Below are positions 7,051 to 16,851 of a DNA stretch of 64,000 bases, in pieces. Source of the stretch: Pelosinus fermentans DSM 17108. Lineage in GTDB: Bacteria; Bacillota; Negativicutes; DSM-13327. Positions within the stretch are counted from its first letter, which is position 1. The number at the start of each line of letters is the position of its first letter. The stretch covers positions 3,993,501-4,057,500 of the forward strand of contig NZ_AKVN02000001.1 in assembly GCF_000271485.2 (NCBI RefSeq), in the 5' to 3' direction. The notes below the pieces were generated by a model, which worked only from the letters and a program-made list of their open reading frames with translations, was not told where the DNA came from and made no database searches. The position numbers were made by a program, and so were the translations under genes.

Positions 7051-8556
7051 TTACAATACAAAATACTTATCTATAAAGTAATTTTTGCTCATCGGCAGCC
7101 ACTCTGGAATGTCGTAAAATTTATTTTTAATCGGTCGCAGAATTTGTTCACGATAAACATCATACTTAAAATCTTTGCCTTCTACTAAGTAAAATGATAT
7201 ACCATCTAACTTTATTTCTTCAATAGTAACCTCTTGAAAATAAGGAGTGTATAAAGCTTTATCCGCCGGTTTAGTACGGAAAATAACTATATTCTTCCCG
7301 TTAAAATTCCTGAAATCAGTGTACATATCATCATGTCGTGCGTGATACGATCCTTTGCCAAAGACACTTACATATTCCTGCGTATAATAATACAGCACTG
7401 CTGATTTTGAATAACTTTCAGTGGCAAAAATGTAATCCTTAGAATATGGTTTTAGAATATTAGCCATTGCCTGTGGTTTAATATAGAATAAACTTTGCTG
7501 ATAAATCCTGCTTTGCGCTATTTGAGCAGGGGGTGAAATCAAAATATAAGATAACAAGATATTGAAAGTAAAAGTAAAAACAGCCACAAGCAATGTGGAT
7601 TTCTGGAAAGTGACTTCACTAAAATGAAAGAAAGTCAAAATGAAGAGAAATGGTAAGAACGCCAGCGGCCAATGAAGTCCAATTGGCTTTGTAAATGACA
7701 ATATCGCAAATATGCCTATTGGAACTATAAACAAGACAGAATAATATTGTCTGAGGTGGTCCGAACCAGTAATTCTCATTGCTGTTTTCGAGTCTCGGAG
7801 CAAGTAATAAATCACAACAGGCGTTAGCAAAAGCAGCAGTTGTCCTAAATAAGATAAGAAATATAAAGGCTTCAAGGCGCCCATATCTTGATTCCGATTA
7901 TATACGTTAAACATAATATTCGACCAACCATGAGTATAATTGTAGTATACGTTTAGTAGACCAAATGGCATGGCACAAATAGCCATTATGGAAAGTGCTC
8001 TAATCCCCCATCGATTACGTTGATAAATCAGCACATATACTACATAAGCAATTACGAGAACTGCTGAAAAATATTTTGATAAGAAAGCTCCGCCAAGAAA
8101 GACACCTGCTGCAATTAAGTAAAGTGGCTTATTCTTGTGCAGACCATGATAAAAACATGCAGACGAAAGGGAGACAAATAACATAAGTGGAGTGTCAGTT
8201 GTAACTAAAATATTAGCCATATTAAGTGGTGATACCAAGAATAAGATTACTGTCCAACTAGCAAGGTTCTTATTTTGGCTCTGTAACAAGATATAAATGG
8301 CAGCACCAATGACATAAGGAAAAATAAGCGGTGGAAGGCGAAGTGCATATTCACTAGAGCTAAATTTTAAAATGACGGCAAGCAGCCAGCCGACCATTGG
8401 CGGATGATCATAATAACCAAAGTCGAGGAATGTTCCCCACGTGTAAAAATAAGCCTCATCACCAGTAAGCGGAATCCCATAGGCTAGAAGTGATTTCAGA
8501 AGAAATGTCACGCCTATTGTAATATATAACAGTTTTTTACTATCCAAATTTTTCAT
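7051..8556 (-). CDS. GT39/ArnT-like membrane glycosyltransferase
   Basis: A 501-residue polytopic membrane protein. Its first loop contains GDEAYFYTWG and DFGYYDHPPMVGW, the acidic and His-Pro motifs of the PMT_2/ArnT family. These enzymes move a sugar from a polyprenyl-phosphate carrier to a lipid or protein on the outer face of the inner membrane. About ten hydrophobic segments follow, then a soluble C-terminal domain from about residue 375. ArnT itself adds 4-amino-arabinose to lipid A; here the donor and acceptor are unknown. Its promoter carries the triple TTA box shared with the adjacent OmpR-type two-component system, a layout reminiscent of PmrAB-ArnT. The first 13 codons are duplicated at 9069-9107. 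Confidence 0.88.
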   Translation of the reverse strand: MKNLDSKKLLYITIGVTFLLKSLLAYGIPLTGDEAYFYTWGTFLDFGYYDHPPMVGWLLAVILKFSSSEYALRLPPLIFPYVIGAAIYILLQSQNKNLASWTVILFLVSPLNMANILVTTDTPLMLFVSLSSACFYHGLHKNKPLYLIAAGVFLGGAFLSKYFSAVLVIAYVVYVLIYQRNRWGIRALSIMAICAMPFGLLNVYYNYTHGWSNIMFNVYNRNQDMGALKPLYFLSYLGQLLLLLTPVVIYYLLRDSKTAMRITGSDHLRQYYSVLFIVPIGIFAILSFTKPIGLHWPLAFLPFLFILTFFHFSEVTFQKSTLLVAVFTFTFNILLSYILISPPAQIAQSRIYQQSLFYIKPQAMANILKPYSKDYIFATESYSKSAVLYYYTQEYVSVFGKGSYHARHDDMYTDFRNFNGKNIVIFRTKPADKALYTPYFQEVTIEEIKLDGISFYLVEGKDFKYDVYREQILRPIKNKFYDIPEWLPMSKNYFIDKYFVL

Positions 8557-8784
8557 CCCTTCTTAACCAATTAGTACCACCTCCATAGTAACCTACTATT
8601 ATTACAGGACTCTTAAACAACGATTAGAATTGGATTAAAAAGTTCAAATTTCTCTTCCTATCTGTAAAAAAATGTTCTTATATACTTAAGAGGTTTGATT
8701 AAACGATAAGGGATAGTATTCATGCCGACGAAAGATACAACTATATTGATTGTAATTGAGACCAGTGGACGTCAGCCTCTGATT
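8520..8784. repeat. Direct repeat copy A (promoter plus both flanking gene starts)
   Basis: This segment holds the first codons of the GT39 gene, the intergenic promoter and the first codons of a response regulator. It is repeated in the same orientation at 9071-9403 with only scattered base changes, apart from a 66-base deletion in copy A between a repeated GTA. The two copies are about 550 bp apart and flank a small gene. Confidence 0.92.
8585..8637 (-). promoter_or_regulatory. Triple TTA box A and -10 element of the GT39 gene
   Basis: TTA triplets in A/T-rich half sites start at 8613, 8624 and 8635, exactly 11 bp apart (forward core CTTAAAC, ATTAGAA, ATTAAAA). On the reverse strand a TACTAT -10-like hexamer (8585-8590) follows at a fixed distance, and the same spacing recurs at box C. 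Direct repeats with an 11-bp period next to the -35 region are what OmpR-family activators such as PmrA bind. Confidence 0.7.
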
Positions 8785-8793
8785 ATTTATTAG
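8722..8793 (+). pseudogene. Truncated duplicate of the response regulator start
   Basis: An ATG at 8722 opens the same eleven codons as the intact regulator at 9275 (MPTKDTTILIV). It then jumps to codon 34 of that gene (IET.GRQ) and stops at 8791 after 23 codons. The missing 22 codons include the acidic pocket of the receiver domain. The joint is at a GTA found at both ends of the deleted stretch. No function is expected for the peptide. Confidence 0.85.
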
Positions 8794-8986
8794 GAAAAAA
8801 TTGAATTGACGGTTTTTCATAAGAGCAGACATGAACCCATTTTCCATCACAAATCAACTCGATTTTTCCGAGTTGCCTGCCTTCCCAAATCCAGGACTTG
8901 ATGACTTCTGCTACAATTATATTGGTTTTTTTCTGCGACAAGGTTGGATCCGCTACTACTGGGATACCATGAATGATTGTACACAT
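8783..8986 (-). CDS. Small protein of unknown function, 67 residues
   Basis: An open frame of 67 codons with a perfect AGGAGG eight bases before its ATG, hence probably translated. It begins MCTIIHGIPVVADPTLSQKK and continues with a mixed alpha/beta-looking, moderately charged sequence with three cysteines and no membrane segment. I do not recognise a family. It lies exactly between the two copies of the duplicated promoter segment, and its stop codon overlaps the end of copy A. It may have come in with, or been trapped by, the duplication. Confidence 0.6.
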   Translation of the reverse strand: MCTIIHGIPVVADPTLSQKKTNIIVAEVIKSWIWEGRQLGKIELICDGKWVHVCSYEKPSIQFFPNK

Positions 8987-9038
8987 TATATAAGCCTCCT
9001 ATCACTTATTTGCTAAAGAGTTGAATGATTCATTTCTA

Positions 9039-9107
9039 TTAATGGATATATTTTGCTAACCAAACTCTGGTAATATATAAAAGTTCTTTACTATCCAAAT
9101 TTTTCAT
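9039..9107 (-). pseudogene. Duplicate fragment of the GT39 gene start
   Basis: Reverse-strand ATG at 9107 opens MKNLDSKELLYIT, matching the first 13 codons of the GT39 gene (MKNLDSKKLLYIT). The match then ends and a stop follows after 22 codons. It is the left edge of repeat copy B and is not a working gene. Confidence 0.82.
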
Positions 9108-9403
9108 CCTTTGTTAACAATTAGTACTACCTCCATAGTAACCTACTATTATTACAGGACTCTTAAACAAAGATTAGAATTGGATTAAAAAGTTCAAATT
9201 TCTCTTCCTATCTGTACAAAAAAATGTTCTTATATACTTATAGATATTTGATTAAACAATAAGGGGTAGTATTCATGCCGACGAAAGATACAACTATATT
9301 GATTGTAGAAGATGAGTGGAAAATCGCCCGATTTATACAAATGGAACTGGAACACGAAGGCTTTAAAACCGTAATTGAGACCAACGGGCGTCAGGCTCTG
9401 GAT
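9071..9403. repeat. Direct repeat copy B
   Basis: Second copy of the segment at 8520-8784. Here the right end continues into the intact response regulator while the left end is a dead fragment of the GT39 start; copy A has the opposite arrangement. The ancestral order was therefore probably GT39 start, box, regulator start as one divergent promoter, later duplicated in tandem. Confidence 0.92.
9163..9187. promoter_or_regulatory. Triple TTA box B upstream of the two-component operon
   Basis: TTA triplets start at 9163, 9174 and 9185, the same 11-bp array as box A with one base changed. It lies about 90 bp upstream of the response regulator ATG and may provide autoregulation. On its reverse side only a dead GT39 fragment remains. 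Confidence 0.6.
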
Positions 9404-9967
9404 CGAATTGTCCAAGAAAACTTTGACCTCATTTTATTAGATATTATGCTGCCGGAGATGTCAGGCATAGAAGTCTGCCGCCGGGTTCGAGAGATTTCTC
9501 AAATACCGATCATCATGATTACCGCCAAAGGTGCAATTGAAGATAGAGTCACGGGGCTGGATATTGGTGCAGATGACTATCTAACCAAACCATTTGCAAT
9601 ACAAGAACTTCTGGCCAGAATCCGTGCAGCTCTGCGTAAAAATAAGGCGAGTAAGTGCCAGCTCGACCAAGGAAATTTACGCGTAAAAAATCTCGTTTTA
9701 TTTTCAAAGCGTTTTGAAGCACAGGTCAACGGGCAGCCTATCGAATTGACTAAAAAAGAATATGGTCTCCTCGAATATTTGGTACGTAATAAGCACATTG
9801 TATTAGATCGCGAACACATTCTACAGGATGTCTGGGGTTATGAATATGCAGGAAATACAAATGTAGTGGATGTTTATATTCGCTATTTGCGCAGCAAACT
9901 TGATGAACAGTTCGGGGAAAAATATATACATACAGTTAGGGGAATCGGCTATGTGGTCAAAGATTAA
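9275..9967 (+). CDS. OmpR/PhoB-family response regulator
   Basis: A 230-residue regulator with a receiver domain at 1-120 and an OmpR-type winged helix at about 130-228. The phospho-acceptor is D56 in LILLDIMLPEMSG. The acidic pair E12/D13 (LIVEDE), the switch Thr (MITAKG) and the KPF motif (YLTKPFAIQELLARI) are all present. The DNA-binding part has GQPIELTKKEYGLLEYL and the terminal VDVYIRYLRSKLDE...VRGIGYVV signature. It probably binds the 11-bp-period TTA boxes at 8613, 9163 and 12247. It overlaps the kinase gene by 17 bp, a tight operon. Copy A of the duplicated segment holds a truncated second start of this gene. Confidence 0.93.
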   Translation: MPTKDTTILIVEDEWKIARFIQMELEHEGFKTVIETNGRQALDRIVQENFDLILLDIMLPEMSGIEVCRRVREISQIPIIMITAKGAIEDRVTGLDIGADDYLTKPFAIQELLARIRAALRKNKASKCQLDQGNLRVKNLVLFSKRFEAQVNGQPIELTKKEYGLLEYLVRNKHIVLDREHILQDVWGYEYAGNTNVVDVYIRYLRSKLDEQFGEKYIHTVRGIGYVVKD

Positions 9968-11372
9968 AAAATTCACCATCTCAATGTCGATTCAATTGAC
10001 AATATTCTACATTGGTATTTTGTTCTGCATTCTGTTCATCATGAGCTTTTTTACTGTCTGGGGGGTACAATATATCTTGTTTATGCAGGCAGAAAATGAC
10101 ATTATTGCCAGTGCCAATAACATTACCAGCTATCTAGCAGCAGGTCATCCTATAGATCAACAATTATTAAGTGAAAATTTTCTTGAATCCGATATTATTC
10201 TCAGGATCTATGACGAACAAAGCAACCTAATAATAGATAATGCTCCTTATACGATTAGCACAAACAAACCTCAGATGAGAGAGCAAGAAGGCATTCAGCT
10301 TATTGAAAGTACTTTACTAAGAGAAATTCCACGCCATCCCTACGAGGTAAACCATACTCATTTTTATTACTTACAGCAATTGGTGCAACTAAATGGACAT
10401 TCATACCAATTGCATTTCATGAAAATAATCTCGGAGAAAAATGCCGTTCTAAAGACCTTATCCAATATTATGAAAGCAAGCAACCTCATCGCCCTATTTT
10501 TTATCATTACGACTGGTATCTTTATCATTCGCAATATTCTGCGCCCCATTCGAAATATAACAGCAATTGCTAAAGAGATTGAGATTAATGACTTAAGCAA
10601 ACGTATCCATGTTAAAGATAGCAATGATGAACTCCATCATTTGGCAAGAACATTTAATCATATGTTAGATCGGCTTCAGACGGGATTTGAACAACAGCAG
10701 CAGTTTGTCGCAGATGCTTCCCATGAACTGCGTACTCCCATCACGGTTATTAGCGGTTATGCCAATATGCTGGATCGTTGGGGTAAACAAGACGAATTTG
10801 CATTACAGGAAGGAATTAGCGCAATAAACTCGGAAGCAGCTAATATGTATGAGCTTATTGAAAAGTTGCTCTTCTTGGCGCGAACGGATCAGAGTAATCA
10901 GATGATCAATAAAGCTAACCTTGATATGCAAAGCCTAATTGAAGAAATAGTACAGGAAACTCAGCTTATCGCTCCAAACCATCAAATATTTCTAACTAAA
11001 AATGATTCTGCCATTATTTATGCAGATTCTGCTTCTATCAAGCAGATGTTACGAATTTTCATTGAAAACAGTATTAAATACACACCTATCGGCGGTACAA
11101 TTCGTATCGCTTCACACCAAGTAGATACTTACTTGCATATTACTATTCAAGATACTGGAATTGGCATACCGAAAGAAGAGCAATCTAAAGTTTTTGACCG
11201 TTTTTACCGGGTTGATGCATCCCGTTCAAAACTAACAGGTGGAGCCGGTCTCGGCCTTTCTATTGCACAATGCATTGCTCAGCAGCATGATATTGAGATT
11301 CATTTGACCAGTATACTAAGCGAAGGTACTACAATTACACTGCAGTTTCCCCTACCTTCCAAAAAGCAATGA
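9951..11372 (+). CDS. Sensor histidine kinase with HAMP domain
   Basis: The start ATG at 9951 (MWSKIKKFTISMS) lies inside the end of the regulator gene, with AGGGGA nine bases upstream. Upstream in-frame codons would give an implausible 27-residue extension. The protein has 473 residues. Membrane helices lie at about 16-39 and 176-195, with a 135-residue extracytoplasmic sensor between them. A HAMP domain follows at about 196-250, then the HisKA box (ASHELRTP, His258), then N (IFIENSIKYTP), G1 (DTGIGIP), F (FDRFYRVD) and G2 (GAGLGLSI) motifs of the ATPase. It phosphorylates the regulator encoded just upstream. The signal is unknown; the ArnT-like neighbour suggests envelope stress, cationic peptides or metal. 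Confidence 0.92.
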   Translation: MWSKIKKFTISMSIQLTIFYIGILFCILFIMSFFTVWGVQYILFMQAENDIIASANNITSYLAAGHPIDQQLLSENFLESDIILRIYDEQSNLIIDNAPYTISTNKPQMREQEGIQLIESTLLREIPRHPYEVNHTHFYYLQQLVQLNGHSYQLHFMKIISEKNAVLKTLSNIMKASNLIALFFIITTGIFIIRNILRPIRNITAIAKEIEINDLSKRIHVKDSNDELHHLARTFNHMLDRLQTGFEQQQQFVADASHELRTPITVISGYANMLDRWGKQDEFALQEGISAINSEAANMYELIEKLLFLARTDQSNQMINKANLDMQSLIEEIVQETQLIAPNHQIFLTKNDSAIIYADSASIKQMLRIFIENSIKYTPIGGTIRIASHQVDTYLHITIQDTGIGIPKEEQSKVFDRFYRVDASRSKLTGGAGLGLSIAQCIAQQHDIEIHLTSILSEGTTITLQFPLPSKKQ

Positions 11373-11430
11373 TTAACTGATGCAAACCAGCCCTCCTAGT
11401 GATATCCGTCAATTCGTCAAGCTTTCCATA

Positions 11431-11487
11431 CAAAAGCTCTCTCAATAAACAACTGGACGTTCATCCATCTTGTCTACTAAGAGAGCT
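11431..11487 (-). terminator. Probable terminator between convergent genes
   Basis: AGCTCTCT at 11435-11442 pairs with AGAGAGCT at 11480-11487. The long loop contains a smaller stem (GGACGTTCATCC). Four T follow on the reverse strand. It probably ends the secreted-protein gene. Confidence 0.45.
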
Positions 11488-11504
11488 GCCTATTTCCTAT
11501 ATCT

Positions 11505-12095
11505 TCAAGTAAATATTGGGTCACTGTCCTCTTTAGGGGGAGCGTTTGAATCTGCGATACTCTGATTAATCGTTTTAATTCCAGCATCTGTTGCTTTTCT
11601 CACAGCTTCCTTCACTGGGGATTTCTTACCAATGGAGGTATAGGGGAGCCATGTAGTGTTAGAGCCACGACCTGTAACATCTTCAATTAAAGTATATTTC
11701 TGGGTAATGGCATTATATAAACGAACTCTAAGTGTAGCCACCGTTTTGATATTTTTATAATATAATACATCACGATAATCGGATTTTACAGGAAGAATTT
11801 CCACAGTAAGTAAGGAATTGGTTCCTAATTCTTTAGCCAAACTGTTTAAATCTTGCTGATCTTCTAGTTGTAGTTTTTCCAGCGTATTCTCCCTTAAATC
11901 CTTACTTACAATTTCGCCACCTGGCATGTGTTTGTCTAACTTCGCAGTAATTTCACTTTTCAGTTCACTTCCATACGATTCTTTAGAACTATCCATTACT
12001 ATAAACCTTATATCTTCGGGGTTTGTAGAAGATGCATGAACTGGGAATGTCAGCATAACAAACATTGTTACAAGTATACACAAACTCTTATACAT
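11505..12095 (-). CDS. Secreted protein of unknown function, probable two-component target
   Basis: The ATG at 12095 is chosen because AAGGAG lies nine bases upstream. An earlier ATG at 12119 would put that site inside the gene and lengthen the signal peptide. The 196-residue product starts with a clear signal peptide (MYKSLCILVTMFVMLTFPVHA). The mature part includes LGTNSLLTVEILPV, VRLYNAITQKYTLIEDVTGRGSN-like strands and a final helix AVRKATDAGIKTINQSIA. This alternation faintly recalls CsgG/LpoB-type periplasmic folds, but I cannot assign a family. The promoter at 12219-12271 carries the triple TTA box, so the adjacent two-component system probably controls it. Confidence 0.75.
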   Translation of the reverse strand: MYKSLCILVTMFVMLTFPVHASSTNPEDIRFIVMDSSKESYGSELKSEITAKLDKHMPGGEIVSKDLRENTLEKLQLEDQQDLNSLAKELGTNSLLTVEILPVKSDYRDVLYYKNIKTVATLRVRLYNAITQKYTLIEDVTGRGSNTTWLPYTSIGKKSPVKEAVRKATDAGIKTINQSIADSNAPPKEDSDPIFT

Positions 12096-12218
12096 GTATA
12101 TTATCTCCTTTATTGCCATCTTTAAATTATTTTGATTATCATTACAATTGCTCTGAAGCTCAATTATGGGCCCTAAAGTAATTTTATTTATTCTCTCCTC
12201 TCAGTTAATCTTACCATT

Positions 12219-12271
12219 ATAATAGCCCTCCATTATTACACGATCATTAGACTAAGATTAGAATTAGATTA
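12219..12271 (-). promoter_or_regulatory. Triple TTA box C and -10 element of the secreted-protein gene
   Basis: TTA triplets start at 12247, 12258 and 12269, again exactly 11 bp apart (ATTAGAC, ATTAGAA, ATTAAAA). On the reverse strand TATTAT (12219-12224) follows, with 23 bp from the first TTA to the hexamer, as at box A. A conserved GTAATAAT between box and -10 is shared with box A. The surrounding sequence otherwise differs, so this is not simply another copy of the duplicated segment. Confidence 0.7.
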
Positions 12272-12301
12272 AAAATGATAGCGCGTTCAGATCGTAAAAA
12301 T

Positions 12302-12420: not shown

Positions 12421-15400
12421 TTACCTAGTTACATTCTTTGAAATCTGTATGTCTACAGATTTTCCCTTACTTTTGCCGGACAGCTTAATTTTTTCTACCA
12501 CTACAAACAGAACAGGAATTAAGAATATGCCAAGAGCCGTAGCTGCAAACATACCACCTACCACTGCTGTTCCCATAGAATTTCTAGCACCTGCACCAGC
12601 ACCCGTAGCAATTGCCAACGGAACGCAACCGATAATAAAAGCTAATGATGTCATAATGATGGGACGCAGACGAATCTTTGCTGCTTCAATGGAGGCTTGA
12701 ACAATATCCATACCATTATCCACTCGTACTTTTGCAAACTCTACAATCAATATGGCATTTTTTGCTGCTAAACCAATGAGCATAACTAAAGCGATTTGCA
12801 TATATATGCTATTTTCTAAGTTCCGTGCATATTGAGTTAAGAAAGCACCAAATATGCCTACCGGAACGGTAAGTAATACTGCAAAAGGGACACTCCAGCT
12901 TTCGTACAAGGCAGCTAAGCACAAAAATGCGAAGGCAATCGCCATCCCAAATACAATGAGGGTTTGACTCCCTGAAAGTCTTTCTTCACGACTTTGACCG
13001 GACCATTCATAAGAATAGCCACTAGGCAGCGTTTTAGCAACTTCTTCCAGAGCGGCCATTGCCTGACCCGAACTATATCCAGATGCCTGAGTGGCGCTGA
13101 TTTTAACGGCTTTAAGGCCATTATATCTTGTAATGGTCGCCGGAGCATTGATGCTTGTCGGTTTTATCAGCGTATTTAATGGCACCATTGCCCCACTAGA
13201 ACTTTTCACAAACAGGTACCGTGCCGCATTAATATCTTTACGATAGGATGTTTCAGCTTGCACAATAACCTTATACGTACGACCAAATTCATTAAAATCA
13301 TTAACCTGAGATCCACCAAGAAATACCTGTAAAGCCGAAAATACATCTTCAATGGCGACTCCCATGTTTTCAGCTTTTTCCCGGTCAACCTCAAATTCAT
13401 AGCTGGGTGTATCAGCTTTAAAATTTGAAGAAATCGACCCAATCTCAGGACGCGCTTTTGCTGCAGTAACAAAAGCCTGGGACATGCTATCCAGGGCTTC
13501 CAAGGATCCCCCTTTTTGATCTTCCAGCATTAAAGTTAATCCACCCACAATTCCAAGTCCTGGTAATGCCGGAGGTGCAAAAGCAATGACTGTTGCTTCA
13601 GGCAAATGAGCGCCGGCCACAAAGGTTTGACCAATTTGAGCTTGTACAGCTAATTCAGGGCTGGTTCTCTCTCCCCACGAATCCAAGGAAACAAACATGG
13701 TTGCTACATTGGGCTTAGATCCTCCACCTAATAAATCAAACCCAGTTATAGACATAACATCGGAAACACCTGATTGAGAACTCACCTTGCCTAAAAGTTC
13801 AGACGTTGCTGCCTTCGTACGATTGGAACTGGCTGCTTCAGGTAAAGAAATAGAGGTAAGGAAGTATCCCTGATCTTCATCAGGCACAAAAGATGTAGGA
13901 ACGATCTGTGATAATCCCACAATTGAAAGACATAAAACAACCAATGCAATCATACATAAATTTGCTTTGGAGATAGCTTTAGATAAGCCATTTCCATATC
14001 TTTCAATGTTTGTTTCAAACCAGTGATTGAACTGGTCAAAAAATTTACCAACCTTTCCACTATGAGCATTTGGATCATAAGGCTTAAGTAATAATATACA
14101 AAGTGCCGGTGTCAAAGACAAAGCGACAACAGCTGATAGAGCCATCGATACCGCAATCGTTAAGGCAAATTGCTTGTATAAAATCCCCATCATGCCACCA
14201 AAAAAAGCGACTGGAATAAATACAGAAGCCAGGACAAAGGCAATCGCAATTACGGGTCCCGTCACTTCACTCATGGCTCGCCGAGTGGCTTCTACTGGAG
14301 TAAGTCCTGAGTAACGCATGTGATGTTCCACGGCCTCAATAACAACAATAGCATCATCAACGACCAGCCCAATGGCAAGTACCATGGCAAATAAAGTTAA
14401 GGTGTTAATCGTAAATCCTAATACAATGAAGGCACCAAACGTTCCGATTAATGATACTGGAATGGCTAGCATGGGAATCAATGTGGCACGCCAGCTTTGC
14501 AAAAAAAGAAAGACGACAACTAAAACCAGAAGCATTGCTTCGGCAAGGGTTTTAATAACTTCAGTCATTGATTCACTAACAAATTTAGTGCTATCCACAA
14601 CAACTGTATATTGCAAACCAGCAGGGAATGTTTGTGACGCATTCTCAAGAACTGTCTTTACATTTCCAATTGTCTCCAAAGCATTGGCATCACTGGTTAA
14701 CTTAACAGCAAACCCTGTACTAATATGACCATTTACCGTGCTGTCGCTCGCATAAGATTTGCTGCCCAGTTCAACCCGGGCTATATCTTTTATATGAACA
14801 AACGAGCCTTCGCCTGTCGAGCTAACAATGATATTCCCAAATTCCTGGGGAGTTGTTAGACGTCCTTTTACTCTCGTACTATATTGAAATTCTTGCTGAG
14901 AATCATCAGGCATTTGTCCAATAGCACCAGCAGGCGCTTGAATATTTTGCTTTTTAATAGCATCAGTAACTTGGCTTATAGAAATGCCCATTTTTGCCAT
15001 TTTTTCTGGCTGCAGCCAAATTCTCATACTATAATCCGAACCAAATTCTGATACTTCCCCGACACCTTTGACACGTTTTATCTGATCGAGAAGATAAATG
15101 CTGCCATAATTTTTTAAGAAATTCCCATCATAAGTGTCATTTGGCGACCAGAGTGTGAAAATCAGGGACATATCTTGGGATGATTTTCGAGTCGTAACAC
15201 CGACTGTCTGAACATCACTTGGTAATGAAGAAGTTGCCTCTGATACTCGATTTTGAGTCTGCACCGCTGCAGTATCGGCATCAGTTCCAGACTCAAACTG
15301 AACACTGAGGGAATAAGAACCTGAATCTGTACTGGTGGAAGACATATAAGACATTCCCTCCACCCCATTGACTTGTTGTTCAATGATCTGAGCTACAGTT

Positions 15401-15576
15401 TGATCGATGACCTCAGCATTAGCCCCTTGATAGGCTGTACTAATGGAAACGGTTGGCGGAGATATCTGAGGATACTGGGCTACAGGTAAATTAAATGCAG
15501 CGGTTACGCCTATTATTGTTATGAAAATCGATAAAACAATCGCAAAAATAGGGCGATTAATAAAAAAATTAGACAT
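12421..15576 (-). CDS. RND multidrug efflux transporter (HAE1/AcrB-like)
   Basis: A full-length inner-membrane RND pump of 1051 residues, driven by the proton gradient and exporting hydrophobic drugs from the periplasm. The N-terminus MSNFFINRPIFAIVLSI and the early QYPQISPPTVSI are family signatures. The transmembrane-4 aspartate pair is in GLVVDDAIVVIEAVE. Two large periplasmic loops follow helices 1 and 7, giving the usual twelve helices. The operon order is adaptor then pump, 12 bp apart. No outer-membrane channel (TolC/OprM) gene follows, so the pump must use one encoded elsewhere. MarR, encoded divergently, is the likely repressor. Confidence 0.95.
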   Translation of the reverse strand: MSNFFINRPIFAIVLSIFITIIGVTAAFNLPVAQYPQISPPTVSISTAYQGANAEVIDQTVAQIIEQQVNGVEGMSYMSSTSTDSGSYSLSVQFESGTDADTAAVQTQNRVSEATSSLPSDVQTVGVTTRKSSQDMSLIFTLWSPNDTYDGNFLKNYGSIYLLDQIKRVKGVGEVSEFGSDYSMRIWLQPEKMAKMGISISQVTDAIKKQNIQAPAGAIGQMPDDSQQEFQYSTRVKGRLTTPQEFGNIIVSSTGEGSFVHIKDIARVELGSKSYASDSTVNGHISTGFAVKLTSDANALETIGNVKTVLENASQTFPAGLQYTVVVDSTKFVSESMTEVIKTLAEAMLLVLVVVFLFLQSWRATLIPMLAIPVSLIGTFGAFIVLGFTINTLTLFAMVLAIGLVVDDAIVVIEAVEHHMRYSGLTPVEATRRAMSEVTGPVIAIAFVLASVFIPVAFFGGMMGILYKQFALTIAVSMALSAVVALSLTPALCILLLKPYDPNAHSGKVGKFFDQFNHWFETNIERYGNGLSKAISKANLCMIALVVLCLSIVGLSQIVPTSFVPDEDQGYFLTSISLPEAASSNRTKAATSELLGKVSSQSGVSDVMSITGFDLLGGGSKPNVATMFVSLDSWGERTSPELAVQAQIGQTFVAGAHLPEATVIAFAPPALPGLGIVGGLTLMLEDQKGGSLEALDSMSQAFVTAAKARPEIGSISSNFKADTPSYEFEVDREKAENMGVAIEDVFSALQVFLGGSQVNDFNEFGRTYKVIVQAETSYRKDINAARYLFVKSSSGAMVPLNTLIKPTSINAPATITRYNGLKAVKISATQASGYSSGQAMAALEEVAKTLPSGYSYEWSGQSREERLSGSQTLIVFGMAIAFAFLCLAALYESWSVPFAVLLTVPVGIFGAFLTQYARNLENSIYMQIALVMLIGLAAKNAILIVEFAKVRVDNGMDIVQASIEAAKIRLRPIIMTSLAFIIGCVPLAIATGAGAGARNSMGTAVVGGMFAATALGIFLIPVLFVVVEKIKLSGKSKGKSVDIQISKNVTR

Positions 15577-15588
15577 TGAAAATCCCCC

Positions 15589-16755
15589 TTATTGCTTCGC
15601 CGGAATTTGCAATGCATCCGGTTGTATCATCGTTACTTGTAATGCTGATCCGTCTTTAACTTTATTGATACCTTCCACGATAATGCGATCATTCGCCGTC
15701 AGCCCATCCTGCACTAACCACATATTTCCAATTCGTGGCCCCATAGTCACAACTCTGCTTTCCGCCTTATTATCTTCTGTTACTAGGGTAACAAATGTCT
15801 TGCTCAACAATTCCGTTACTGCTCGCTGAGGGATGAGTAAAGCCCCTTGATGTACTTCTCCCTGTGTTACTACCCTGGCAAACATACCCGGCATTAGAAT
15901 GTTTTGCGGATTACTGAAAGAAGCTTTTAGGGTAATTGTACCTGTTGTATCACTAACGCCCCTGTCGATTTGCTCAATATGACCGAGTACTGGATATTGG
16001 GTTCCATTGCTCAGCGTAAGTTTCAGATTATCCTTAAAAGTGCTTGGTAAAGTACCTTTTCCTAACTGGGTAAGGTCTAAATATTCATTTTCGCTCATAC
16101 TAAACTGAACCCATACTGGATCAATGGATGAAACTGTAGCCATTGTCGTCGACCCGGCGGCTACATAATATCCAATGCTGACATCATTCACATCAATACG
16201 GCCATCAACAGGTGAGAGTATTAACGTATCTTGCTCATCCTCTGTTGCCTGCTGCAGACTCGCTTGATTCACTTCAACTTCCGCGGCAGCTTCAGCTGCT
16301 TGGGATACCTGTGTATCTAAAGTTTGTTGTGCAATACCATTAACAGCTGCTAATTGCCTGTATCTTTCCACATCTTTTTGGATATTATTAAGTGTTGCTT
16401 TCGATTTATTTAACTGCGCTCTAGCTGAATTTATCCCGGAACGATATTGTTTATTATCAATTCGAAACAATGGCTGTCCTTTGTAGACTGTATCGCCACC
16501 ATTCACCATCTTATCTACAATATTGCCAGATACTTTCGACATGATTTTGACTTCATTTTTTGATTTTATTTGCCCCACAAATTCATAGCTCATTGGAGCA
16601 TCCTGCTGAATTACCTGCATAGCTTTCACTTCTACTGCCTGGGGCTGGGCTTCTTGATTTTTTGACAACCAACCGTTGCGAACAACAATCATTCCTATCA
16701 AAATAACCACAATTATAATTCCTATGTACAACTTCTTTGAACGTTTAATATTCAC
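15589..16755 (-). CDS. RND periplasmic adaptor (AcrA/MexA-like membrane fusion protein)
   Basis: A 388-residue protein with one N-terminal membrane anchor (YIGIIIVVILIGMIVV) and no lipobox cysteine. The halves of the biotinyl-lipoyl domain surround a coiled-coil hairpin (about residues 100-165, ARAQLNKSKATLNNIQKDVE). The lipoyl half-motif GDTVYKGQPLFRID and LILSPVDGRI are visible. Beta-barrel and membrane-proximal domains follow, ending RIIVEGINKVKDGSALQV. It links the pump to an outer-membrane channel. It is the first gene of the operon, and its upstream region holds inverted repeats that may bind MarR. Confidence 0.93.
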   Translation of the reverse strand: MNIKRSKKLYIGIIIVVILIGMIVVRNGWLSKNQEAQPQAVEVKAMQVIQQDAPMSYEFVGQIKSKNEVKIMSKVSGNIVDKMVNGGDTVYKGQPLFRIDNKQYRSGINSARAQLNKSKATLNNIQKDVERYRQLAAVNGIAQQTLDTQVSQAAEAAAEVEVNQASLQQATEDEQDTLILSPVDGRIDVNDVSIGYYVAAGSTTMATVSSIDPVWVQFSMSENEYLDLTQLGKGTLPSTFKDNLKLTLSNGTQYPVLGHIEQIDRGVSDTTGTITLKASFSNPQNILMPGMFARVVTQGEVHQGALLIPQRAVTELLSKTFVTLVTEDNKAESRVVTMGPRIGNMWLVQDGLTANDRIIVEGINKVKDGSALQVTMIQPDALQIPAKQ

Positions 16756-16806: not shown

Positions 16807-16851
16807 AACCATTTAATTAGTTATGGTTTACATCTAGATTACCGGTAAACC
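16807..16851. promoter_or_regulatory. Paired inverted repeats in the efflux promoter
   Basis: AACCAT (16807) and ATGGTT (16823) form one dyad, and GGTTTAC (16825) and GTAAACC (16845) another that overlaps it. They lie 52-96 bases upstream of the adaptor ATG, where a repressor or activator of the pump would bind. Confidence 0.4.

Follow-up and report, generated by a model that had tools for sequence, protein, structure and literature searches.

Introduction

Negativicutes are Firmicutes with an LPS outer membrane (diderm). Among regulators of the OmpR/PhoB family, PhoB and Bacillus PhoP have pho boxes in which 11-bp repeats replace the -35 element at a fixed distance from the -10, with four-repeat sites in B. 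subtilis. The repeats of the Bacillus PhoP box are of the TTAACA type and belong to the phosphate regulon.

The PmrA box consists of two half-sites with an 11-bp period, CTTAAG-N5-XTTAAT (PMC3973317), and in the PmrA-DNA crystal structure Asn188 is one of two residues that enter the major groove for base-specific recognition (PMC4660055). Mtb PhoP forms a tandem array on repeats of 11-bp period (a 7-bp motif and a 4-bp spacer), on which cooperative binding extends to three or four units, and such sites are bound more tightly than those with two (PMC4832192). In Burkholderia thailandensis, DedA and UppP have been tied to Ara4N transfer and to resistance to colistin or bacitracin (PMC7835334). 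In the open-access papers searched, no description of the regulon reported here was found, nor any paper on the control of envelope modification in Negativicutes or Pelosinus.

The two-component system and the boxes

The window, which is the whole 64-kb stretch of DNA analysed, belongs to the 5.03-Mb genome of a Pelosinus, a member of the class Negativicutes, the nearest named relatives being P. propionicus DSM 13327 and P. fermentans JBW45. It encodes a two-component system:

9275..9967, plus strand: OmpR/PhoB-family response regulator, 230 aa, with recognition-helix residue N196
9951..11372, plus strand: sensor histidine kinase with HAMP, HisKA and HATPase_c domains, overlapping the end of the regulator gene

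Three boxes, each accompanied by the -10 hexamer of a leftward promoter, lie on either side of these genes:

8585..8590, minus strand: TACTAT, the -10 hexamer of the promoter that reads leftward from box A, at +11 relative to the end of the box
8601..8642, minus strand: box A, TTA at 8602, 8613, 8624 and 8635; predicted operator of the leftward PMT_2 gene; 41.8 bits with the matrix, and found with the genome patterns
9135..9140, minus strand: TACTAT, the -10 hexamer of the promoter that reads leftward from box B
9151..9192, minus strand: box B, TTA at 9152, 9163, 9174 and 9185, between divergent promoters; 47.6 bits with the matrix, and found with the genome patterns
12219..12224, minus strand: TATTAT, the -10 hexamer of the promoter that reads leftward from box C
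12235..12276, minus strand: box C, TTA at 12236, 12247, 12258 and 12269; 54.7 bits with the matrix, and found with the genome patterns

Boxes A, B and C are alike in being 42-bp sites of four TTA units spaced by exactly 11 bp. The original prediction described triple TTA boxes with an exact 11-bp period; its nine TTA coordinates are all exact and the period holds, but the boxes are not triple, as a fourth in-phase TTA is present at 8602, 9152 and 12236. It also placed TACTAT or TATTAT hexamers at a fixed spacing from boxes A and C, which is correct except in being restricted to these two, since box B has a TACTAT as well. These hexamers coincide with the -10 of the leftward promoters, and their spacing to the box is identical at all three, with GTAATAAT in between. 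Over ~37 loci the plus-strand consensus reads ATTAcA-N5-ATTAGAC-N3-GATTAGAAT-N2-GATTAAAAA, in which the last unit, after GATTAGAAT-N2, carries GATTA and the TTA letters are 84-96% conserved in each of the four units.

Comparison with known systems

The regulator has the domains of the OmpR/PhoB type, a receiver (PF00072, 2.2e-30) and a Trans_reg_C winged helix (PF00486, 1.1e-28). An analogy with PmrA had been proposed for this locus, and it is borne out for the mechanism (11-bp direct repeats, OmpR family) but not for membership of PmrA/PmrB, the NCBIfam scores being far below the cut-offs (162.9 vs 330 for PmrA and 127.4 vs 314 for PmrB). Over the aligned parts the regulator is 35% identical to E. 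coli BasR and the kinase 26% identical to BasS. Likeness to PmrA (BasR) lies in the OmpR/PhoB fold, in head-to-tail half-sites at 11 bp, in an Asn at the base-reading helix position (N188, corresponding to N196) and in lipid-linked sugar or envelope targets. The boxes agree with the PmrA box in period and differ from it in the half-site: the PmrA box has two units with a TTAA core, whereas here there are four with (G)ATTA. The kinase is also longer before its HAMP domain than PmrB.

Mtb PhoP is among the closest solved structures to the regulator and, with its tandem direct repeats of period 11, is the closest precedent for the tandem binding proposed here. Its motif and regulon are unrelated, however, and four units are not the rule there, whereas all four are conserved here. 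PhoB and Bacillus PhoP share 11-bp repeats that replace the -35, with a different half-site sequence, and against the PhoB model the regulator scores 207 bits (cut-off 296) and is not PhoB. The B. thailandensis findings are relevant in that DedA and UppP are box targets in other Negativicutes, although the link is here made only through the shared operator in related genomes.

Uniqueness of the site in the genome

Three TTA at 11-bp spacing occur 7 times in the window against 2.0 expected, a number reached in 1 of 100 shuffles; such a pattern alone is weak evidence, in contrast to the full site, for which the evidence is strong. The sites used for the matrix included box B and other boxes upstream of regulators, but neither A nor C. 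Besides the three boxes the matrix gave no other match of at least 15 bits in the window, to which it was applied, and the best score in 6.4 Mb of Markov-generated sequence was 14.7 bits. The whole genome (5.03 Mb) was scanned with patterns instead. The four-unit pattern with up to 3 mismatches found only A, B and C (1 match for the reversed control pattern), and the pattern of box plus -10 found A, B and C at 0-1 mismatches together with 3 weaker matches (control, 0). Random scatter of the array across the genome, the outcome named beforehand as contrary to the original prediction, was not seen, the only good sites being A, B and C.

A triple TTA at 16817, upstream of an efflux-pump adaptor, was rejected as a fourth box on its matrix score of below 10. 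C1:3392196 (1 mismatch) lies inside a coding frame and is kept there in JBW45, and was therefore read as coding sequence. A box-like sequence at C1:3097125-3097177, which together with its -10-like hexamer has 2 mismatches, precedes a gene for an ABC-transporter ATPase and lies beside a different OmpR-type two-component system. This is possibly a site of another regulator.

Conservation across the Negativicutes

Orthologous kinases (E <= 1e-90) were found in 77 of 200 genomes of the class, and only weaker relatives in a sample of 149 phylum genomes from outside it. The upstream regions of 37 of 79 regulators score above the matrix threshold. In ~35 loci from many Negativicutes families the box lies 5' of the orthologous regulator, in an orientation that never varies and 100-190 bp from the regulator start (100-132 bp in most), and in these loci the four TTA units have the head-to-tail arrangement and 11-bp period of a direct-repeat operator. 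As judged from their sequence, the three TTA boxes are real copies of a class-wide putative binding site. The regulon had been called local, which is true within this genome, where it is confined to the locus, and not of the class, across which it extends. With a 42-bp operator and a fixed -10 offset, the regulon should be readable from sequence in any Negativicutes genome.

The regulators of one large family of loci (f11; L126-L170) have the same recognition helix, but in most cases a box could not be recognised upstream of them, perhaps because the operator has shifted or been shortened there.

Covariation of the recognition helix and the box

The recognition helix of the regulator, GNTNVVDVYIRYLRSKL, is almost invariant across the class, and its residue 196 aligns with N188 of PmrA/BasR. 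Where a regulator with a box has N196 (n=27), the base before TTA is A in 27 of 27 cases in unit 3 and 27 of 27 in unit 4 (54/54 units). With K196 (n=4) it is G in 4/4 at unit 3 and 3/4 at unit 4 (7/8 units), although the K-type regulators form one clade, ~87% identical, and the covariation counts as a single evolutionary event. N- and K-type paralogues occur side by side in two genomes (G110, loci L121 and L125; G146, loci L116 and L123), each with the matching GATTA- or GGTTA-type box. This covariation is the best in-silico evidence that the regulator reads the box, and the natural pairing of N196K with a GATTA-to-GGTTA change offers a ready test case for the insulation of paralogous two-component systems.

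Promoter architecture

In 44 of 51 boxes a TA...T hexamer (T at positions 1 and 6, A at position 2) starts precisely at +11 beyond the box on its minus-strand side, these being non-redundant boxes, oriented so that the minus strand reads toward the left gene, that are not phylogenetically independent. At the other offsets from 1 to 60 the hexamer was found in 0-14 boxes, mostly 0-3 (median ~1). The column frequencies of the -10 are T92 A86 T76 T63 A57 T92. No -35 is visible for the leftward promoter, its place being occupied by units 1 and 2. Because the -10 lies at this fixed offset, the box would replace the -35 of the left gene, as in class-II activation, where the operator sits at a fixed phase over the -35 region next to a conserved -10. 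All but two of the boxes with no regulator gene on the right have a leftward-transcribed gene, and the box is thus directional.

A second conserved block, at a near-constant distance from the box, lies between it and the regulator gene and reads TTCCTA/TTTTCA, an A-tract, TG and TTTTAT/TATATA. Its counterpart in the window is:

9205..9236, plus strand: probable promoter of the two-component operon, with TTCCTA (-35-like), an A-tract spacer, TG and TCTTAT/TATATA, at a conserved distance from the box

From its sequence this block is probably the operon's own promoter. Box B lies ~49-90 bp upstream of this predicted promoter, and autoregulation is therefore likely. At 9205-9236, and to the right of the boxes in loci L050-L151, the block also shows the series CTCTTtC, A-tract, TG, TATATA, and it has no good -35. 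Reading the conserved block as a hairpin was considered and dropped in favour of a promoter for loci of the Sporomusa/Pelosinus type, whereas the similar-looking block of family f11 was taken, by eye, for a terminator.

Duplication history of boxes A and B

The segments that hold boxes A and B are ~90% identical over ~200 bp, a stretch that takes in the first 33 bp of the regulator gene. Each segment retains a scrap of a gene that is complete beside the other:

8723..8781, plus strand: what is left of the 5' end of the regulator gene on the right-hand side of box A, namely its first 33 bp and an internal fragment
9065..9107, minus strand: remnant of the PMT_2-gene 5' end to the left of box B (first codons), shared with P. 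fermentans JBW45

The likeness of A and B is partly shared ancestry, not selection. Box C lies outside the duplicated segment, as had been claimed; it is ~71% like that segment over 92 bp, with the identity concentrated in the box and the -10. In JBW45 the PMT_2 scrap is present, and a PMT_2 homologue (67% identical) is found elsewhere with its own box; the scrap is absent in P. propionicus. Because of the remnants at A and B and the scrap in JBW45, the ancestral unit was probably a PMT_2 gene and a regulator-kinase operon diverging from a single box.

A comparable case is seen in another family, in which a genome (G054) has a box with no regulator gene, beside another target gene; over 104 bp this box shares 88% identity with the regulator promoter of a second genome (G094). 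From these two cases we infer that growth of the regulon through duplication of the regulator's intergenic region seems to have occurred more than once. In two families boxes are found next to dead regulator fragments, which suggests a route by which the regulon gains targets.

Predicted target genes

The genes to the left of the boxes are as follows:

7051..8556, minus strand: PMT_2-family membrane glycosyltransferase (PMT_2, 2.2e-23), predicted target of box A
8783..8986, minus strand: 67-aa ORF, the first to the left of box B, with no Pfam match and conserved in three Pelosinus species
11505..12119, minus strand: exported 204-aa protein with a lipoprotein-like fold by model, predicted target of box C

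The box A gene had been named an ArnT-like transferase, a label that goes too far: the family model identifies it only as PMT_2, with no match to the NCBIfam ArnT model and none by sequence to solved ArnT. For box B the two-component operon had been given as the target, and the box does lie upstream of it, but the leftward 67-aa ORF had been omitted. The latter has an identical counterpart in P. fermentans JBW45 and one that is 88% alike in P. propionicus, and it may belong to the regulon as a small protein. For the exported protein at box C, the model (mean pLDDT 70, moderate) matches the folds of GNA1162, CT253, PelC, CsgG and LpoB, and homologues of this protein in other genomes (36-40% identical) have no box.

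Elsewhere in the class, genes associated with boxes encode PMT/ArnT-like proteins, an ArnC-related polyprenyl glycosyltransferase, UppP/BacA, DedA (VTT) and an NAD-dependent epimerase, and further BOF-domain proteins, TolC-type OEP, an RND adaptor and pump, HtpX and DUF5666. In JBW45 the PMT_2 gene with a box of its own is the first of a series, which continues with genes for a nucleotide-sugar dehydrogenase, an epimerase-like protein, a glycosyltransferase and, as judged by eye, a GtrA-like protein. HupE, DUF347, DUF4405 and a methyltransferase are also associated with boxes and have no obvious envelope fit. No phosphate genes were found among the box targets, and no arn operon or eptA was recognised near the boxes. 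Across the class the targets have mostly envelope functions, with envelope remodelling as the common theme.

No box accompanies the RND pump in the window (12421-16755), whereas in other genomes RND-pump or TolC-type genes are preceded by boxes (L067 8163 in G006, L172 8210 and L173 8377).

Proposed mechanism and alternatives

The box lies 5' of the orthologous regulator, the -10 is fixed in 44/51 and the helix residue covaries with the base, and for these reasons we consider it very probable that the boxes serve as operators for the adjacent OmpR/PhoB-family regulator, which would class-II activate the leftward envelope genes and is likely to be autoregulated. The proposal that they serve a local OmpR-type system gains support from the same three features. 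The kinase would phosphorylate the regulator, which would then bind head-to-tail as an array of up to four monomers, each occupying an 11-bp unit, all on the same helix face. Such an array would cover the -35 region and the sequence upstream of it (about -24 to -66) in the leftward promoter, and its edge beside the -10 would aid RNA polymerase at a promoter with a good -10 and no -35. In Pelosinus this would switch on the PMT_2 glycosyltransferase (A), the small ORF (B) and the exported lipoprotein-like protein (C). We infer binding by the regulator, its oligomeric state and activation rather than repression, the last from the layout. The physiological role may be modification of the cell envelope under stress by cationic peptides or similar; polymyxin, Fe(III) and Mn had been put forward as candidate signals.

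It is improbable that a different OmpR-family regulator or other factor binds the boxes and has the operon merely as one of its targets. OmpR-family proteins do have related sites, and the weaker box-plus-10 match at C1:3097125 lies beside another OmpR-type system, but strong boxes in the host genome are confined to this locus, and across the class the box accompanies the regulator and its base changes with the regulator's helix residue. Slightly less improbable is that the box serves repression or mainly autoregulation, copy A being an inert leftover of the duplication. Sites far upstream of the operon promoter can be repressive. Against this reading, a -35 partner is missing for the leftward -10 and its place is taken, at a fixed phase, by the box, as in activated promoters of the PhoB/PmrA type. 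Box A arose by duplication and still bears a dead regulator fragment, yet it retains a high score and an intact -10, and the layout recurs at box C, which has a gene of its own and is not part of the duplication.

That the boxes arose by chance, or are phased A/T-rich bent DNA (a UP-like element) with no specific regulator, can be given almost no weight. The region is A/T-rich, TTA is frequent in it and the triple TTA is only ~3.5x expectation, whereas the full site is 27-40 bits above random sequence, and positions other than A/T (GATTAG, GAC and the G before ATTA) are conserved over families, and the change at one position tracks the regulator helix.

There is a wider reading, to which we give an even chance of being right. 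The Negativicutes would own a class-wide envelope regulon that fills the part played by PmrAB in proteobacteria, with an obligately four-unit operator, a single N196K shift that separates paralogues, and targets recruited by intergenic duplication and loss of the regulator copy.

In JBW45 (L050 8220-8960) the kinase of this system is broken into fragments, followed by a deletion that matches ~10602-11278 of the window, and a second, intact system (L051; regulator 83%, kinase 67%) is present elsewhere with its own box.
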